Part shown: positions 40,401 to 59,368 of the stretch, in pieces
Position numbering within the stretch: position 1 is the first letter of the stretch
How the letters are laid out: every line of letters starts with the position of its first letter
Source: an uncultured Bacteroidales bacterium
GTDB lineage: Bacteria > Bacteroidota > Bacteroidia > Bacteroidales > WCHB1-69
Direction: 5' to 3'
DNA length: 64,000 nt
Assembly (NCBI GenBank): GCA_900315705.1
Contig: ONAB01000003.1
Location: 44,633-108,632 of the forward strand
Translations under genes and position numbers: made by a program
Notes under the pieces: model-generated
Seen by the model: the letters and a program-made list of their open reading frames with translations, nothing else
Told to the model about the DNA's origin: nothing
The model's database searches: none

Positions 40401-41198
40401 CGTCCGAAGGTCATACTGCCCGTATTCCCGGGCACCAACTGCGACTACGACACGGCCAAGGCGTTTGAGGACGCGGGTGCCGAGCCGCGCATCTTCGTCT
40501 TCAACAACCTCAACGAGACCGAGATCAACCGCTCCATCGACGAGTTGGCGGCGGCCATCGACGAGTCGCAGATAATGGCCTTGAGCGGCGGCTTCAGCTC
40601 CGGCGACGAGCCCGACGGCAGCGGCAAGTTCATCGCCACTGTCTTGAACAATGCGAAGATCAAAGCCGCCGTGAACGGACTTTTGGCGCGCAAGGGACTG
40701 GTGTTGGGCATCTGCAACGGCTTCCAGGCCTTGGTCAAGTCGGGATTGCTGCCCTACGGACGGTTGGGTGACATCACTCCGGACTCCCCGACATTGTACC
40801 GCAACAACATCAACCGCCACATCTCGCGCATCGTGCGCACGCGTGTGGGCACCGTGGCATCGCCGTGGCTCACCTCCTTCCAGGTGGGCGACGTTCACCA
40901 GATTGCCGTCAGCCACGGAGAGGGTAAGTTCGTGGTCAACGAGCAATTGGCCAAGGAACTGTTCGAGCACGGCCAGGTAGCCTTCCAATACTGCGATGAA
41001 AACGGCAATGTGAGTATGGATCCGGTTGACAATCCCAACGGCTCCTTCTACGCCATCGAGGGCATCGTCTCGCAAGACGGACTCATCCTCGGCAAGATGG
41101 GACACAGCGAGCGCAAGGGTGAGAATCTGTACAAGAACATCGACGGCAACAAGGAACAGGACATCTTCCAAAACGCCGTCAACTACTTCCGCCAATAG
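37485..41198 (+). CDS. purL: Phosphoribosylformylglycinamidine synthase, single-chain
   Basis: 1,237 aa from the ATG at 37485; an in-frame GTG at 37404 lies upstream of the promoter element and is rejected. The large form combines the N-terminal PurS-like domain, two AIRS-like ATP domains (NHPTEIEPFGGAATCVGGAIRD near 325; FGGRTGRDGIGGA near 455) and a C-terminal glutaminase with Cys1077 (LGICNGFQ). It converts FGAR to FGAM in purine synthesis. Its stop lies inside a CCAATAG repeat tract. Confidence 0.95.
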   Translation: MRNARIFVEKKPGFDVEAVSLKETLNHNFNLNIRHLRQLVVYDIFNVDDILLERAKVGVLSEPVVDNLLEEFPLEGLTYLAVEYLPGQFDQRADSAMQCLSLLDPKTEVVIKSAKLYVFDADLTPEQFAHIKKYCINEVEAREKDMGKLELTENPEVQEVPIVEGFTQWSKEQLEAFRVAQGLAMSLEDIAFIQEYFKNDEHRDPTDTEIKLLDTYWSDHCRHTTFETELTKITFTPCGLQHQLQAAYEQYLSMRKELYGDREKPQTLMDMASINGKYERKAGHLDDMEVSEENNACSIYINVDVDGKIEPWLLMYKNETHNHPTEIEPFGGAATCVGGAIRDPLSGRSYVYQALRVTGAGDINAPMSATLEGKLPQSVISKNAAAGYSSYGNQIGLATTHVREIYHDDYKAKRLEIGAVVGAAPVSHVRRESPQSGDIIIMFGGRTGRDGIGGATGASKEHNEKSLDTCAAEVQKGNAPEERKIQHLFRRPEVTRLIKKSNDFGAGGVSVAIGELADGLEIDLDSVRTKYKGLNGTEVAISESQERMSAVVDPKDVEAFFEYCRQENIEANIIAKVTDTNRLTMKWRGKTIVDLSRDFINTNGVRQKTEAIVNAIPDNVLEGQPVAGATMQEKMLSMLANPNVASQKGLIEMFDATIGATTVLMPFGGKRQLTETQASVQKLPVLHGHTNTASVMAFGYNPYIALRSPFHAAVFAILESMSKIVATGADYKGIRFTFQEYFEKMGHEPTRWGKPCAAMLGCVWMLKQFDLAALGGKDSMSGTFKNLHVPPTFVSFAITTENAKNIISPEFKKEGHYLYFIQNKIENNLPDIQQTKKIFDFVHQNTLNGNIVAAFTPQYGGIAEALAKMSFGNDLGFDIRTDLNLFDYAYGSFVVESTVKLDADFAIELGKVSKEFIINGEKIDKEACLKVWRGVYFNLYPDQADNETRSTGAEFAVNSQCAPVAKCPTPVVRPKVILPVFPGTNCDYDTAKAFEDAGAEPRIFVFNNLNETEINRSIDELAAAIDESQIMALSGGFSSGDEPDGSGKFIATVLNNAKIKAAVNGLLARKGLVLGICNGFQALVKSGLLPYGRLGDITPDSPTLYRNNINRHISRIVRTRVGTVASPWLTSFQVGDVHQIAVSHGEGKFVVNEQLAKELFEHGQVAFQYCDENGNVSMDPVDNPNGSFYAIEGIVSQDGLILGKMGHSERKGENLYKNIDGNKEQDIFQNAVNYFRQ

Positions 41199-41260
41199 CC
41201 AACCACCAAAAACCAAAATCCAATAGCCAACAGCCAATAGCCAATAGCTAATAGCCAAAT
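41192..41260. repeat. Short tandem CCAATAGC-type repeats
   Basis: Several near-identical units (CCAATAGCC, CAATAGCCAACAG, CTAATAGCC) run from the purL stop to just before the next gene. The purL TAG is part of the first unit. Such tracts are frequent between Bacteroidota genes and expand by slippage. Confidence 0.7.
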
Positions 41261-41273
41261 TCAACGACGCCTT

Positions 41274-41930
41274 ATGGAAAAAACAGAGCTCACGGTTGCC
41301 GACATCCACGCCGCCGCCCAGCCTTCGGAGGCTTTCTCTCTGATCTTGAAAGAGAAGGAGGGCGAGCGTTATGTGCCCGTCATCATCGGGATGAGCGAGG
41401 CGCGTGCCATCTTGGTGGAATTGAACCAGTCGCCCACCCACCGGCCGCTGACGCACGAGTTGTTTGTCTCCTTGGCCGACCATTACGGCAGTCTGTTGGT
41501 GGAGGTCAACATAGTGCACTACGAAAACGGCGTCTATTTTGCCGATATGGTGATGATTGGCAGCGACAACAAGGTCTTCCATTTGGACGCACGCCCGTCG
41601 GATGCCATCGCGTTGGCGTTGAAATTCAACGCCCCCTTCTTTATGGACACCGCCATCTTCGAAGCCAACTGTATGGTGGACAAAAAGCGCGAGGAGGAAG
41701 ATGAAGAGGGGGATGATGATAATCTTTTCAGCGAATACAATGAGTTGGCGGACGCGCTTGAAGAAGCGGGTGGCGAGCCTTTGCCGGAGGCCTTCATCGA
41801 CTCCAAGTTGAAAGAGATGAGCGAAGAAGAGCTCCAATCCTTATTGGACGGGGCGGTGGAGAGCGAGGATTTCGAGTTGGCGGAAAAGATTCGGCAGGAG
41901 CTGGAGCGGCGTGGTTCTCATCCCCGTTAG
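41274..41930 (+). CDS. Bifunctional-nuclease-domain protein with UVR motif
   Basis: 218 aa. Residues ~1-135 form a DUF151/bifunctional nuclease domain (FSLILKEKEGERYVPVIIGMSEARAI ... HLDARPSDAIALALKFNAP). An acidic linker (EEEDEEGDDD) follows, then a C-terminal UVR motif (LQSLLDGAVESEDFELAEKIRQELERR), which mediates protein contacts in UvrB/UvrC. Nuclease activity is known for plant and some bacterial relatives; the role here is unproven. The last codons and the stop come from the first REP-like hairpin. Confidence 0.85.
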   Translation: MEKTELTVADIHAAAQPSEAFSLILKEKEGERYVPVIIGMSEARAILVELNQSPTHRPLTHELFVSLADHYGSLLVEVNIVHYENGVYFADMVMIGSDNKVFHLDARPSDAIALALKFNAPFFMDTAIFEANCMVDKKREEEDEEGDDDNLFSEYNELADALEEAGGEPLPEAFIDSKLKEMSEEELQSLLDGAVESEDFELAEKIRQELERRGSHPR

Positions 41931-42099
41931 GGGATTCATATCTGTAGCCAAGGAACGATCCCGACCTGCCACAACCCCGTTAGGGGTTACATATCAATAT
42001 GTTACAATCCAATAAATGTTTTTAATGAATCCCCTATCGGGGATTTCGGAACTCGCGTGGGCACCCGTTTTCTACAGAGATGTGTCCCCTAACGGGGAC
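41922..42099. repeat. Four REP-like hairpins at ~55-base spacing
   Basis: CCCC-N4-GGGG stems at 41922-41933, 41973-41988, 42028-42045 and 42084-42099, with loops GTTA, GTTA, TATC and TAAC. Cores are 53, 56 and 55 bases apart. The first two and the last read in opposite orientations: CATATCTGTAG follows the first, and its near-complement precedes the last. A fifth copy is at 52697. They resemble dispersed REP elements of Bacteroidota. Confidence 0.75.
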
Positions 42100-42105
42100 G
42101 GGCGG

Positions 42106-42185
42106 AAGGTGCTGCCGCCACACATATCGCGTACGTGGAGACCAAGGCGGGAATCAGCGATGTGAAGTTTGTGGTGGTATCTTGA
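42106..42185 (+). pseudogene. Orphan T9SS CTD fragment 1
   Basis: Reads AYVETKAGISDVKFVVVS then stop, the terminal strand of a Por-type CTD without the rest of the gene. Bases 42127-42176 are identical to 43059-43108. It lies directly after the REP cluster and overlaps the 3' end of the ORF6N gene on the other strand. Confidence 0.7.
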
Positions 42186-42789
42186 ATCCTATCGGGTTTT
42201 CCGGTTCCGTCTTCTTCTCGCGCAGCTGGTCAAGTGCATCGTTAATGACCTCAATTTGCAAGGCGACCTCGCTGTTGAATTGCGACTGTAGCTGGTTGAT
42301 GTCGTTCTGGTCGTGCAAAATCTCCTCAACGTGCGCGTTCAGTTGGTCAACTTTGTGGGAGAGCTGCTCGATTTTCAGGTCGTATGAGAGCATTGAAGAA
42401 AGTGCCTGCCGCATTGCAATGAACGCACGCGTTACCATCACACTCATCTGTACAGCACTTGGACTCCGAAGCACGGAGGCGAGCATCACCGCCCCGTGTT
42501 CAGTGAAGGCGTATGGGGTCGCTTTCTTTGGTCTCTTCTCAGGGTATGTCATCACAAATTGTGATGACATACTATATTTTTTCAAAAGAGCATTCCATTC
42601 TTCTTCGGTTAGTTTGAACATAAAATCCTGAGGAAAGCGGTCTATATTTCGCTTTACTGCTTGGTTCAAAGATCGGGTTTCCACTCCGTAAATGGCTGCC
42701 AAATCGTAATCTAACATAACTTTGACATCTCTTATGTCGTAGATGATGTCTTGGATGGAGTTGCCTGAGGGTAGAATATTGTCTTTCAT
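42154..42789 (-). CDS. ORF6N domain protein
   Basis: 211 aa from the ATG at 42789; a TTG at 42819 falls in the promoter. The N-terminal ORF6N domain is clear (IQDIIYDIRDVKVMLDYDLAAIYGVETRSLNQAVKRNIDRFPQDFMFKLT and YAFTEHGAVMLASVLRS). A C-terminal ~65-residue predicted coiled coil (LSHKVDQLNAHVEEILHDQNDINQL) follows. ORF6N proteins are DNA-binding and common in phages and genomic islands. The last codons (PPQTSHR) are antisense to a T9SS CTD fragment, so the original C-terminus may have been replaced. Confidence 0.88.
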   Translation of the reverse strand: MKDNILPSGNSIQDIIYDIRDVKVMLDYDLAAIYGVETRSLNQAVKRNIDRFPQDFMFKLTEEEWNALLKKYSMSSQFVMTYPEKRPKKATPYAFTEHGAVMLASVLRSPSAVQMSVMVTRAFIAMRQALSSMLSYDLKIEQLSHKVDQLNAHVEEILHDQNDINQLQSQFNSEVALQIEVINDALDQLREKKTEPENPIGFKIPPQTSHR

Positions 42790-42816
42790 CTTTAATTCAT
42801 TATTATTTTTTATCTG

Positions 42817-42824
42817 CAAAATTA
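42817..42824 (-). promoter_or_regulatory. Promoter -7 element of the ORF6N gene
   Basis: TAATTTTG on the minus strand, 28 bases before the ATG. Confidence 0.4.
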
Positions 42825-42994
42825 CAAAATCAAAACAAACAAATCAAGAGCAAATGCTATTTAATTCGTTAAAAATCAAAATGATAAAAATGACATTTTT
42901 CAATATAAAAGTTGCCGTTTTTGTAAAGAAAGTTGCAAATTGCAGAAAATGCACAAGACCTCACTTGTCCACGACACTGGTGTGCCATCTGTAA

Positions 42995-43120
42995 TTTTGG
43001 AAGATTTTGGACGTATGGGTGCATTTTCTGTTCGCCCCATACCCTACCGGCACCTACCTCGCGTACGTGGAGACCAAGGCGGGAATCAGCGATGTGAAGT
43101 TTGTGGTGTGGAAGAATTAA
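42995..43120 (+). pseudogene. Orphan T9SS CTD fragment 2
   Basis: The open stretch ends APYPTGTYLAYVETKAGISD then VKFVVWKN and stop, the last 30 residues of a type A CTD. No upstream cargo gene is attached: the frame is closed at 42992. The stop is followed by GAATGAAG, like the tails of the other CTD ends. It contains the second copy of the 50-base repeat that flanks the ORF6N gene. Confidence 0.75.
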
Positions 43121-43485: not shown

Positions 43486-45552
43486 GTGAGGTTTACAACA
43501 TTTTTACTATCAGCCCTATTTTTCCTTCTTGCCAGCACATCCGCTTCCGCCCAAGGCGAGTGGAAATGGGCGCATTATTGGAGCGGTGGCGACGGGTCAT
43601 ACTCCAACTATTACAACAAGATTACAAATATTGCTTTTGATGACGATGGCAATATGTACGTGTATGGGTCAATGGGAGGGTATGCGGAGTTTGACGGATC
43701 GGCTATTCGTTTTACCTCAAGCGCACAAGTACTTAATCGAAATAACCGCACAATTCTTTTGACCAAGTTCGACACTACCGGCAATATGCTTTGGTACAAA
43801 GTCGTAAAAAACAGCAGCGATATGACAGCTCCCAAATGGATGGAGGTTAGGAATGGTCATGTTTTTATATCAGGAAATACCGAGCTGGAGTATGTGGATT
43901 GGAATTGGAACAATGTTTGGCTGTACTACTTGGACACACTGATACGGGGTGCCGATGTCCACGAAATTCCTGTTGAAAACAGGAGACCTCCTTTCCAAAC
44001 TGGCCGCTGGACCTTTTTCACCACCTTAGATTTAGACGGGAACGTCCTGGACCATCATTTTGTCGAATCTTTTTCCAGACAATGGATTCATCAAGGTAAT
44101 GAGCTTATCAGACATCAAGATCAGTTGTCTACGGGATTTGCCCCGACACCTGTGCATAAAGACAACCAAGGTAACATTTACGTTTACACACCGATACAAT
44201 ACCAAGGTGTTGAAAGTGATTCCCTAACCTTGGTTGTTGACGGAGACTCCAATAAAACATTCAACCTGTTCCTTCCAGGAAATGCAGATCCGGACAATCA
44301 TTTGTCTTATATAAACAATGCTGCGTTATATAAATTTTCTCCCTCCGGAGAATTGTTATCATACAAACTGTTGGTAGATCATACTGACGGTATGGGTTCT
44401 GTATATCAATTCAATGGGGATAGCGTCAACAAATACTTTACAGTTTTTTTACAGGGTATGACATTTGATGAGGAAGACAATATGTATTTAAGTGGATTTG
44501 TCCGATTACAAGAGTATGTGGATGAAGGAGGGGTACTTCACGGAAGCGAACTTCACAATTACCCAGTACATATATGGTGGGACAACACTCATTATTCCAC
44601 GATACAAGATGCTTCATCCACTCTTTATTGCAATTTTGTCATCAAATACAACACTAATGGAGATATACTGTGGGATAATCAAATTTATACAAGAGGCTAC
44701 AACTACGACTATGCCAATGCCGTATGGAATGGTTGTTCTTACCTTGACAATTCCCTATATATTCTAGGGACTGGTAATTACAGATTAAGCGGGGGGGCTC
44801 TTGTGTATTTCGACACGGAAGAGGATTCTTTACAGCGTTTTCAAGGTTCCCCATCGGATATCGGTTTTTTTGTCCGGTATAATGCGACGACAGGAGAATA
44901 TGTTAACCACGGGATTGTTCCTGCCACACAATCTTTTTCAGGGCAGCTTCCTGCCGTGATAAACAATCGAATTATCGCATATTCAAGTGTGGATTATCAG
45001 CATAGATTCATCAACGAATGGTGTACAAATGGCGTATATATCAAAACAGACACGATTTTTTCCTCACAAGGATTAGGACCAACATCTCTTATAGTGAATG
45101 AGAATGGATATTTACTGGTGTCTATGACAGCAACCTCGCCTGTGACTTTTGACGATAACATATCCGTTAATTGTTCCTCAACACATTCGAGCGCTGTTTT
45201 CGCCTTGTACCACGACCCGGAGTTTGCCACGCCATTTGTTTCCGACGACTCGGTGGGCATTGAGGATTACCTTGACAGGCGCGAAAGCGACATCTATATC
45301 TCTCCTAACCCCACGAGCGGTCCGACCTTTGTGTGCGGCTATATGTACGGTTACACGGGCATCGAACTATATGACCTACAAGGGCATAAAATCGCGGATC
45401 TGGTAGGGACGATGTGCACATCGTCCCTACAACCGGTGCCCTCGTCATCTCTCCCCGCATTCGACCTCTCCCCGTACCCCGCCGGCACCTACCTCGTGAA
45501 AATCAACTTCAACCGGGGCGTGAGCGTGACGCGGAAGGTGGTGAAGAATTAA
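43486..45552 (+). CDS. T9SS-secreted protein with SBBP-like repeats and type A sorting domain
   Basis: 688 aa. The start is GTG: MRFTTFLLSALFFLLASTSA then SAQ is a clear signal peptide and no in-frame ATG precedes it. The body carries repeats such as ITNIAFDDDGNMYVYGSMGG and MTFDEEDNMYLSGFV, typical of SBBP/beta-propeller surface proteins. The C-terminal CTD (IYISPNPTSGPTFV ... GIELYDLQGHKIADL ... LSPYPAGTYLVKINFNRGVS) is interrupted in frame by a 28-base perfect palindrome that adds roughly 20 residues. It ends VVKN followed by TTAAGAA repeats. Function beyond surface exposure is unknown. Confidence 0.85.
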   Translation: MRFTTFLLSALFFLLASTSASAQGEWKWAHYWSGGDGSYSNYYNKITNIAFDDDGNMYVYGSMGGYAEFDGSAIRFTSSAQVLNRNNRTILLTKFDTTGNMLWYKVVKNSSDMTAPKWMEVRNGHVFISGNTELEYVDWNWNNVWLYYLDTLIRGADVHEIPVENRRPPFQTGRWTFFTTLDLDGNVLDHHFVESFSRQWIHQGNELIRHQDQLSTGFAPTPVHKDNQGNIYVYTPIQYQGVESDSLTLVVDGDSNKTFNLFLPGNADPDNHLSYINNAALYKFSPSGELLSYKLLVDHTDGMGSVYQFNGDSVNKYFTVFLQGMTFDEEDNMYLSGFVRLQEYVDEGGVLHGSELHNYPVHIWWDNTHYSTIQDASSTLYCNFVIKYNTNGDILWDNQIYTRGYNYDYANAVWNGCSYLDNSLYILGTGNYRLSGGALVYFDTEEDSLQRFQGSPSDIGFFVRYNATTGEYVNHGIVPATQSFSGQLPAVINNRIIAYSSVDYQHRFINEWCTNGVYIKTDTIFSSQGLGPTSLIVNENGYLLVSMTATSPVTFDDNISVNCSSTHSSAVFALYHDPEFATPFVSDDSVGIEDYLDRRESDIYISPNPTSGPTFVCGYMYGYTGIELYDLQGHKIADLVGTMCTSSLQPVPSSSLPAFDLSPYPAGTYLVKINFNRGVSVTRKVVKN
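45403..45430. repeat. 28-bp perfect palindrome inside the CTD coding sequence
   Basis: Starts GTAGGGACGATG and ends with its exact complement. It lies between the DLQGHKIADL and FDLSPYPAGTYL parts of the CTD and is translated as part of VGTMCTSSLQ. It looks like a dispersed repeat inserted in frame. Confidence 0.8.
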
Positions 45553-45582
45553 GAATTAAGAATTAAGAATTAAAAATGAAGA
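45548..45582. repeat. TTAAGAA tandem repeat after the CTD stop
   Basis: Four units of AATTAAG-type sequence begin at the stop codon of the T9SS gene. The same tail follows the CTD fragment at 46188 and, shorter, the one at 43118. Confidence 0.7.
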
Positions 45583-45646: not shown

Positions 45647-45985
45647 CTAAAGGATTGATGCCACCTTGTTGACAAGATGTGGCTCGCGTCGGGTGCGCTG
45701 CTGCTCTTCCACCTCTCGCTGGGCAATGACAAGGCAGTCGTGCTCGTAGCCGTACTGCAGGCGCATCCAGAAATCGTATGGTATGCCCAATTCCTTCTCC
45801 AATGCCATCGCCACTGCGGTGGTGAAACTGCGCTTGCCCTTGATCAGTTCGTTCAGATGGCTTGGCTGGATGCCTATAGCCTTGGCCAGATCCTTTTGCT
45901 TGATGCCGCGCTCTTTCAGTTCCTCGGCAAGGGTTTCCCCGGGATGGACCGCCCGGAAACCTGTGATTCTGCTATCGTTGTCCAT
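45647..45985 (-). CDS. higA: HigA-family antitoxin, orphaned
   Basis: 112 aa. The HigA start motif HPGETLAEELKERGIKQKDLAKAI and HTH (IGIQPSHLNELIKGKRSFT) are followed by the family's LEKELGIPYDFWMRLQYGYE. It would repress its operon and neutralise HigB. The toxin gene that should precede it is reduced to 25 codons ending inside the higA start. The module is bracketed by two copies of a T9SS CTD 3' end. Confidence 0.9.
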   Translation of the reverse strand: MDNDSRITGFRAVHPGETLAEELKERGIKQKDLAKAIGIQPSHLNELIKGKRSFTTAVAMALEKELGIPYDFWMRLQYGYEHDCLVIAQREVEEQQRTRREPHLVNKVASIL

Positions 45986-46115: not shown

Positions 46116-46190
46116 AATGCGGACACTTATTTCATGATAATCAACTTCGACCGCGGCGTGAGCGTGGTGAGGAAGGTAATTAAGAATTAA
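46116..46190 (+). pseudogene. Orphan T9SS CTD fragment 3
   Basis: Reads DTYFMIINFDRGVSVVRKVI then KN and stop, followed by AATTAAG repeats. It closely matches the end of the 43486 gene (GTYLVKINFNRGVSVTRKVVKN) in protein and DNA. No cargo gene is attached. With that gene's own end it brackets the higA module as an imperfect direct repeat. Confidence 0.75.
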
Positions 46191-46227
46191 GAATTAAGAA
46201 TGAAGAAATAAGGACTATGGATCACTC

Positions 46228-46539
46228 TTATGCAAAAACTTTTTGCATAATGGGGCGGTTCAATGCCCGCTCCAACTTGCATAACGTTTCCAAAGTAAGA
46301 TTCTCCTCGCCCTTTAACAGTTTAGAAACATATTGTGGGGAACAGCCAACAATTTCCGCCAACTGCTTTTGGGACATATTCAACTCTTCCAAAGACAGGG
46401 CAACTACGATGGCGATTTTCCGCGAATAGCGGAGCCAGTCGCGGTTTGCCCTTCGCCATTCGGCTTTCTCTCGCCATTTTGAGGACTCAGACGAAGAATG
46501 CTCTTCCAAAAACTCTATTTGTTCTGCTGCGGTTTTCAT
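46228..46539 (-). CDS. XRE-family antitoxin-like regulator
   Basis: 103 aa. The C-terminal half is a clear XRE HTH (LSLEELNMSQKQLAEIVGCSPQYVSKLLKGEENLTLETLCKLERALN), preceded by an N-terminal helix that may contact a toxin. It overlaps the upstream gene by 4 bases (ATGA). Its partner looks broken, so it may now act only as an autorepressor. Confidence 0.82.
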   Translation of the reverse strand: MKTAAEQIEFLEEHSSSESSKWREKAEWRRANRDWLRYSRKIAIVVALSLEELNMSQKQLAEIVGCSPQYVSKLLKGEENLTLETLCKLERALNRPIMQKVFA

Positions 46540-46799
46540 TTTATTATGCTTTTTTCTTTAATGAAATCTGTAAAACTATCGTCATCAATCACATTATTGG
46601 CGACAAGGTACTGGCGCACTTTCTCCATCTTCACCAGTTCTTTAAGCGTATGCTCCCGTTCCTGCATCGTACGAGTCAGTTTTATCGCGCCACCAGTGAC
46701 AACATATATGCCCGGATTCAGTTTTATGGCATAGATTCGCAACCAACTGGCATGTTTTGGGCGGTCCTTTAATCGAGCCTTTTCTCTTCCCAATTTCAT
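46536..46799 (-). CDS. C-terminal part of a Bacteroidota TA-type toxin partner
   Basis: 87 aa. The segment WLRIYAIKLNPGIYVVTGGAIKLTRTMQERE is the hallmark C-terminal half of a ~180-aa protein family that I recall being paired with XRE regulators in Bacteroidota. The N-terminal ~90 residues are absent; the matching start lies just upstream as a separate 30-codon frame. The pair therefore looks like one gene with an internal deletion. Whether this piece is still functional is unknown. Confidence 0.6.
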   Translation of the reverse strand: MKLGREKARLKDRPKHASWLRIYAIKLNPGIYVVTGGAIKLTRTMQEREHTLKELVKMEKVRQYLVANNVIDDDSFTDFIKEKSIIK

Positions 46800-59250: not shown

Positions 59251-59287
59251 AGTGCCAACAAGTTACTGAATATCAGCAGAAGATCCT

Positions 59288-59357
59288 ACATCCCTACGGC
59301 AGTACTAACTGCATCAGGTTCAACGGGTCTAATCTCAGCCCCAGTGGGCACCCCTTT
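59288..59357 (-). promoter_or_regulatory. TPP riboswitch
   Basis: The minus strand carries the conserved TPP aptamer: GGGGTGCCC, then GGGGCTGAGATTAGACCCGT, TGAACCTGATGCAGTTAGTA and GCCGTAGGGAT. It lies about 60 bases before thiS and directly after the promoter. It should shut off the thi operon when thiamine pyrophosphate is abundant. Confidence 0.95.
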
Positions 59358-59368
59358 TAAATCGGCGG

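Follow-up and report, generated by a model that had tools for sequence, protein, structure and literature searches.

Orphan sorting-signal ends of a type IX secretion cargo family flank candidate defence genes in gut Bacteroidales and may serve as a recombination joint

Why does a small ORF6N gene lie between two identical copies of the end of a type IX secretion system (T9SS) sorting domain? The window, a stretch of 64,000 nucleotides from an uncultured Bacteroidales bacterium, raises this question at a site where the initial annotation had described a perfect 50-base direct repeat of coding sequence for the C-terminal sorting domain (CTD). The repeat is real: bases 42127-42176 equal 43059-43108 (50/50), and because the bordering bases are unlike on both sides (A/C before, G/T after), the exact perfect length is 50 nt. 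With 15 extra upstream bases the pair is 91% identical over 65 nt, and chance origin of the 50-nt match is out of question (about 1e-21 for 64 kb, estimated by hand). Both copies, as had been claimed, encode the last CTD strand (AYVETKAGISDVKFVV) with no cargo attached, in frames of 30 and 41 aa, and the final codons of the ORF6N gene are indeed antisense to the left copy, the gene end overlapping bases 42154-42176. The proposed search of the whole source genome, a draft of 2,995,600 bases (3.0 Mb) in 47 contigs that is 97.6% complete, recovered two full copies of the 50-mer, both at this site and flanking one ORF6N gene, along with a partial 21-nt copy on contig C18. With only two full copies in the genome, the 50-mer is not the generic dispersed repeat that had been considered as the alternative. 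The features of the island are as follows.

41919 to 42100, no strand assigned: REP-like palindromes of the CCCCGTTAGGGG type, left of the left CTD copy (inverted-repeat and match searches)
42127 to 42176, plus strand: left 50-nt CTD end, an orphan of class A (repeat search, CTD-end comparison)
42154 to 42792, minus strand: ORF6N gene, last codons antisense to the left copy (Pfam PF10543, E 5.8e-32; PADLOC PDC-S05)
42794 to 43046, minus strand: region upstream of the ORF6N gene, common to DUF1016, RhuM and other genes (sequence comparison)
43059 to 43108, plus strand: right 50-nt CTD end, its orphan frame continuing to a stop at 43120 (repeat search, CTD-end comparison)
43486 to 45552, plus strand: T9SS cargo gene, 688 aa, with a class B CTD end at about 45469-45552 (PF18962, 22 bits; CTD-end profile, 52 bits)
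45647 to 45985, minus strand: HigA-like HTH gene between CTD ends (PF01381)
46120 to 46190, plus strand: orphan class B CTD end (repeat search, CTD-end profile)
46228 to 46799, minus strand: second HTH gene with an upstream 87-aa ORF, HigA/HigB-like (ORF list, Pfam scan)

A 34-position profile derived from 21 CTD ends matched the source genome 85 times; four of the 85 matches fall in frames shorter than 60 aa, three of these in the island (C20:86761, 87669 and 90757) and the fourth at C18:24228. The profile misses degenerate ends, and other searches turned up further orphans on C14 and C9 and a partial one at C18:16738 (L003), the last without any tested module gene nearby. The island also holds a second pair of ends, missed by the initial annotation: the CTD end of the cargo gene (45481-45552) and an orphan end at about 46119-46190 form a 93-nt repeat, 82% identical, that flanks the antisense HigA-like gene. 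The cargo gene itself carries a CTD at its C-terminus that scores 22 bits, below the 27-bit cut-off of PF18962, and its relatives in L106 and L219 score 28.1 and 33.5 bits, above it. Pfam assigns HTH_3 to the HigA-like gene and nothing to the 87-aa HigB-like ORF; HigA and HigB are names that we assume for the HTH genes and partner of the island. Beside the HigA-like gene, at 45985, about 235 bp of the partner gene are absent by comparison with a relative, G085, in which the partner is a 110-aa frame. The core genes bordering the island encode a bifunctional nuclease (PF02577) and an HI0933-like flavoprotein. In four genus members (G042, G023, G076 and G084) the homologs of these two are no more than about 100 bp apart, and the island is therefore an insertion zone.

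Several further elements were seen in and around the island. Simple repeats of the GAATTAAGAATTAAG type start right at the CTD stop codon (45552-45573 and 46190-46211), a position occupied in other species by GTTAGCAGTTAG repeats, and tandem 14-nt repeats (CCAATAGCCAACAG type) lie at 41191-41262, from the end of a purine-synthesis gene. The segment 41940-42180, which takes in palindromes and the left CTD end, is matched in whole or in part (CTD-only matches included) 6 times in the source genome, 22 times in G050, 13 times in G081 and 0 times in G085; the palindrome segment together with the left CTD end also stands after a cargo gene in G050 (L106 5475-5243). Elsewhere, a TPP riboswitch occupies 59274-59365 on the minus strand, and a search of the whole window against Rfam at the gathering threshold returned this riboswitch and one tRNA only.

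A Pfam scan of six reading frames between the two copies matched ORF6N alone and recognised no mobility gene, and among the inverted pairs sought (at least 20 nt and at least 9 nt) none had arms at both insert borders. The ORF6N protein of the window terminates in ...NPIGFKIPPQTSHR, and those of several relatives in ...NPIGFKLQ or ...NPIGFKVQRQE; judged against these ends, the window gene continues into the CTD copy.

We compared the locus with close relatives, all of them draft assemblies. The initial annotation had proposed to search relatives for an empty site at which one CTD copy is joined to an intact cargo gene. G050 has an empty site, in which the 50-mer occurs once, with one mismatch, and the ORF6N gene is absent; left of the copy 394/400 bases match the left flank of the window, and from the copy rightwards 258/260 match its right flank, with the alternative flanks at chance level (57/228 and 64/242). 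The single copy is still an orphan, however, with no cargo joined to it. At the HigA pair the counterpart of the second orphan end in G050 is joined to a cargo frame, one that extends past the stretch read, but this cargo is unlike that of the window. The difference between the window and G050 does not by itself separate gain of the module from loss, and the direction of the event in G050 is presumptive.

A second relative, G081, keeps the gene and differs in its ends. Its ORF6N core is identical to that of the window at 474/480 positions over 42337-42816 and the upstream region at 87-91% by bins, and the bins that hold the CTD ends agree at 65/79 positions on the left and 18/23 on the right. 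G081 thus carries different CTD ends on both sides of a conserved ORF6N gene; directly after the right one stands the flavoprotein gene. These comparisons bear on another explanation of the repeat, namely unequal crossing-over or an assembly error, with the 50-bp identity arising as a local duplication or a draft mis-join. The genomes are drafts, and the contigs of G050 and G081 break near this place. Against this, the window and G081 carry the order CTD end, ORF6N, CTD end separately and with different CTD ends, and the layout recurs in other genomes, and we consider such an origin highly improbable.

How widely the layout recurs was surveyed across the genus of gut Bacteroidales to which the source genome belongs. 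Orphan CTD ends stand beside small antisense genes of the types ORF6N, DUF1016/YhcG, NYN, HigA-like, RhuM and AAA/PDDEXK, and these genes with their orphan ends adjoin one T9SS cargo family. The order cargo, CTD end, antisense gene, CTD end, antisense gene is found whole or in part in G056, G083, G080, G102, G086 and on C36 of G050; G056 has cargo, NYN and HigA-like genes, and G083 has cargo, DUF1016 and then an AAA/PDDEXK_9 gene. In G085 a truncated cargo fragment is followed by the HigA-like pair, an orphan CTD end, a truncated DUF1016 gene and an ORF6N-type upstream region, and L204 holds two tandem ORF6N modules separated by a CTD end. The left and right CTD ends of some modules (L226, L224) belong to unlike classes and are therefore not simple duplicates. 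In two different genomes, and with like junctions, a truncated ORF6N gene is joined directly to a CTD end near its codon 40 (L194 4912-5000 and L198 4927-5014). A 315-nt query made of the upstream region and the CTD end found a full or partial match in 30/41 genus genomes, its copy numbers being lower bounds because 18 first-look candidates were scored per genome. The upstream region precedes DUF1016/YhcG, RhuM, ORF6N and other frames, some of them decayed, and on its far side there is often, though not always, a CTD end.

Many of the small genes resemble candidate defence genes. PADLOC gave strong candidate matches for four of the six antisense gene types; among 8 proteins scanned from several loci, it matched ORF6N and RhuM to PDC-S05, DUF1016 to PDC-S02, NYN to HEC-09 and a nucleotidyltransferase to PDC-S09, gave weaker matches for AbiEii and the HigA-like protein, and left the 110-aa partner frame of G085 unmatched. 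We accordingly refer to ORF6N, DUF1016, NYN, RhuM, AbiEii and the nucleotidyltransferase as candidate defence families, by label only, and the modules may act in defence.

Is the association a property of these gene families, or of CTD genes at large? We sampled loci by gene rather than by CTD. In a sample of 30 DUF1016 loci, a CTD end on the 3' side was present in 6/8 close loci (at least 75% identity, at least 199 of 348 residues covered), five of them detected by protein profile and L255 by nucleotides, versus 0/19 distant loci (at most 51% identity) by profile and nucleotides; these and the following counts are raw, uncorrected for relatedness, and not independent since many loci are kin by descent. 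One of three shorter close fragments (L276) had a 3' CTD end by nucleotides, and the nucleotide check also placed a CTD end on the 5' side in L242 and, as a weak match in the other orientation, on the 5' side of a distant locus, L282. HigA-like genes had a 3'-side CTD end in 4/10 close loci and 0/6 others.

For ORF6N, a first scan of 42 loci by protein profile found a 3' CTD end in two (L178, L180) and a weak 5' one in L194. A nucleotide scan of 32 of the 42 loci, leaving out L192 (where the match starts at a contig end), L206-L213 and L216, found an adjoining CTD end in 7/10 loci of at least 75% identity versus 0/22 others. Four of these seven positives are partly circular: L179, L180 and L204 were among the six loci used to build the class C nucleotide model, and L232 and L178 are one and the same stretch of contig. 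The adjacency in L204 was read by hand. The remaining three (L177, L194 and L198) are free of this circularity, L177 scoring 25 bits on each side. The idea that ORF6N is a CTD cassette gene in general was rejected, with 0/22 loci below 75% identity having a CTD end.

The converse control started from CTD loci. At the best 30 of 95 PF18962 matches in the source genome, tblastn with 12 module proteins over about 1.5 kb on either side found a module gene near 0/30, and 2/30 matched the island CTD-end models weakly (15.9 and 19.5 bits). A survey of the longest ORF downstream of CTD ends was dropped as a control, as it apparently picked spurious antisense ORFs. No match to the CTD-end models was found at 26 loci around the nuclease gene (L044-L069, 92,476 bases). 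Taken together, the gene-chosen samples and the CTD-locus controls tie the association to certain gene subfamilies and a single cargo family; across the sequences compared, it is no general trait of CTD genes.

Nine class B cargo genes share about 51% nucleotide identity before codon -140 (counted from the 3' end) and 54-59% in codons -50 to -31, and then 92-93% in codons -30 to -11. Identity rises stepwise at codon -30, and similarity is also high over codons -110 to -51 (69-92% in steps of ten codons); the shared end is long, and its last 26 codons resemble one another most. In class A, three genes are similar as far as about codon -100. Silent codons, meaning those that specify the same amino acid, were compared in 30 class B pairs (of 36) with bodies less than 60% identical. 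Agreement was 516/627 in the last 26 codons, 136/218 in codons -56 to -27, 768/1112 in codons -110 to -61 and 459/1109 before codon -140, against a baseline of 1077/2526 when 30 unrelated CTD genes of the source genome are compared at their ends. The ends are thus alike beyond protein conservation and codon bias. Since otherwise diverged cargo genes share 3' ends down to silent codons, these ends have probably been exchanged. The suggestion in the initial annotation that CTD ends act as points of cargo exchange holds to this extent, but what mainly varies at them is the small antisense gene, and exchange of whole cargo is unsupported.

The orphan ends are cut at a recurrent position. We listed 57 CTD-end matches: 15 lie in frames of more than 130 codons, 37 were examined as orphans, and five were left out (two in L179 that coincide with places in L231, and three weak ones of 19-27 bits in L231, L232 and L198). 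A cargo 3' end is matched by 34/37 orphans, and in 23/34 the match starts 64-92 nt before the stop, an interval of 29 nt, with 2 shorter and 9 longer. This start point recurs beside the shared upstream region, the HigA-like module, the palindromes and other contexts, some junctions being shared by descent. One could read the orphans as the remains of a decayed tandem cargo array in which mobile small genes replaced the cargo bodies and left role-less 3' stubs, the later similarity being ordinary gene conversion. Some orphans are indeed longer CTD remnants (164, 204 and 252 nt), the islands also contain cargo genes of the family, G085 has its truncated cargo fragment, and the cargo similarity reaches upstream of the ends. 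Decay does not readily account for stubs that mostly start within one 29-nt interval in several unrelated contexts, nor for the presence of particular gene subfamilies, rather than any gene, beside them. We hold this explanation to be possible, though unlikely.

The upstream region, of about 250 bp, ends near the start codon and is common to unrelated genes across the genus. In the window it contains a perfect 12-nt inverted repeat with arms at 42943-42954 and 43019-43030, and it terminates beside the CTD end in a weakly supported hairpin at about 43013-43042. Movement could be site-specific and driven in trans: a recombinase or an HUH-type transposase, encoded elsewhere, would recognise the hairpin, the CTD end or both and shift the modules as cassettes, the CTD end serving as their attachment site. 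The junctions on both CTD-end sides are nearly fixed in many loci, the window module has no recognised mobility gene of its own, and the hairpin beside the junction shows weak covariation (22/5000 permutations reach the observed pairing, a figure inflated by relatedness). Yet the hairpin is short, with 3-5 pairs, in 6/20 sequences, the left and right ends of some modules are unlike in class, and the integron integrase (TIGR02249) was above cut-off in 0/16 genomes; matches below cut-off occurred in 15/16, as they did in 14/14 control genomes. We regard such movement in trans as distinctly improbable; a trans-acting enzyme may have had a part in the initial fusion of modules and CTD end, which falls at almost one and the same codon.

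With the layout, one empty site, the repeated association with gene subfamilies and the 3' ends shared to silent codons before us, we lean, by a modest degree, towards the CTD end as a recurrent recombination joint for candidate defence modules beside cargo genes, probably through homologous recombination. The joint would consist of the last 64-92 nt of coding sequence in one T9SS cargo family, starting at about the [A/S]-G-T-Y codons and ending with the stop. Small antisense modules would lie between its copies, many of them made up of a single gene of candidate anti-phage or toxin-antitoxin type and the promoter region of that gene. Because CTD ends are the stretch common to otherwise different cargo loci and modules, homologous recombination, presumably of the RecA type, could delete, add and re-end at them. 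Recombination between two copies would delete a module, turning the window layout into that of G050; gain would be the reverse, Campbell-like; and recombination at the joint would swap the 3' end of a cargo gene with its sorting signal kept intact. At the level of sequence, the window and G050 pair fits such a joint exactly, and the altered CTD ends around the conserved ORF6N gene of G081 fit it too. Several observations tell against the joint: cargo similarity extends beyond it (codons -110 to -61, and in class A to about codon -100), the upstream region of G081 differs as well, some modules have left and right ends of unlike classes, HigA-like genes have a 3' CTD end in only 4/10 close loci, and the orphan at C18:16738 stands without any tested module gene.

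How does such an arrangement relate to known systems? The initial annotation had likened the locus to integrating elements and their attachment sites. The likeness holds in the empty site and in a layout that recurs with other genes, and it fails in the insert, where neither an integrase among the six frames scanned nor a bracketing pair of inverted repeats of at least 9 nt was recognised; the attachment-site idea holds as an analogy rather than as membership. An integrative element at a gene 3' end would bring a gene-end direct repeat at both borders and a one-copy empty site, both found here, and an integrase gene, for which the Pfam scan of six frames between the copies gave no match. Elements that integrate at gene 3' ends, such as e14 in icd, supply a replacement end. 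As with e14-type elements, 3'-end direct repeats flank the insert, the empty site has one copy and the host gene end works, but here no integrase is recognised, several different single genes are involved, and the site is a gene family rather than one locus. Integron cassette arrays consist of single-gene modules separated by a short repeated site. In contrast, the repeated element here is protein-coding, the genes carry their own upstream regions, and an integron integrase above cut-off is absent from the 16 genomes. We file the locus under neither integrons nor integrating elements because the integrase feature fails for both. Bracketing terminal inverted repeats of an insertion sequence or MITE were absent among pairs of at least 9 nt. 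Defence islands and the candidate single-gene systems of PADLOC (PDC-S02, PDC-S05, HEC-09) are comparable as candidate clusters that differ between close relatives, and PADLOC matches from several loci do give several neighbouring defence-family genes, of candidate function. In place of a border made by a phage, a tRNA or a core gene, the locus has one made by the CTD end of a T9SS cargo gene.

Two further parallels concern secreted proteins. In Rhs/CDI systems, as the passages on the Salmonella rhs orphan describe, promoterless 3' fragments of a secreted-protein gene adjoin the main gene, to which recombination through the shared sequence can give a new end (PMC3967940). The 3' gene fragments here, tested for the same properties, likewise lie near a main gene and share sequence with it; the fragments in those passages encode toxin tips with immunity genes, whereas ours encode the last sorting-signal strand only and the small gene is antisense and of candidate-defence type. 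Surface proteins of Porphyromonas gingivalis are T9SS-exported and diversified by recombination and gene conversion, which in the relevant parts of that account is an exchange of adhesin or catalytic domains within cargo, with no orphan CTD ends or defence modules (PMC5266723). A literature search by title, covering few subscription papers, found no published description of CTD ends bracketing defence genes, and among viral contigs none carried the three exact patterns taken from the joint and the upstream region.

The comparison of relatives suggests that candidate defence genes are gained, lost and exchanged at CTD-end hinges. A bolder proposal, which we consider rather improbable, is that the CTD end of 64-92 nt is a dedicated, reusable docking site for single defence genes, which would be lined up there into arrays by a recombinase acting in trans or by the recombination machinery of the cell. 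The site doubles as the end of the sorting signal, so the host cargo would keep working after each insertion, and the whole would amount to a cassette system with a joint made of coding sequence. The recombination joint that we favour would show, for one bacterial group, by what route single defence genes that carry no integrase of their own pass from genome to genome, and would link type IX secretion with phage defence. It also makes the prediction that new defence genes in gut Bacteroidales would be found between orphan CTD ends, and under it the homogenisation of CTD ends may be tested as a recombination process, and not as selection on the sorting signal.
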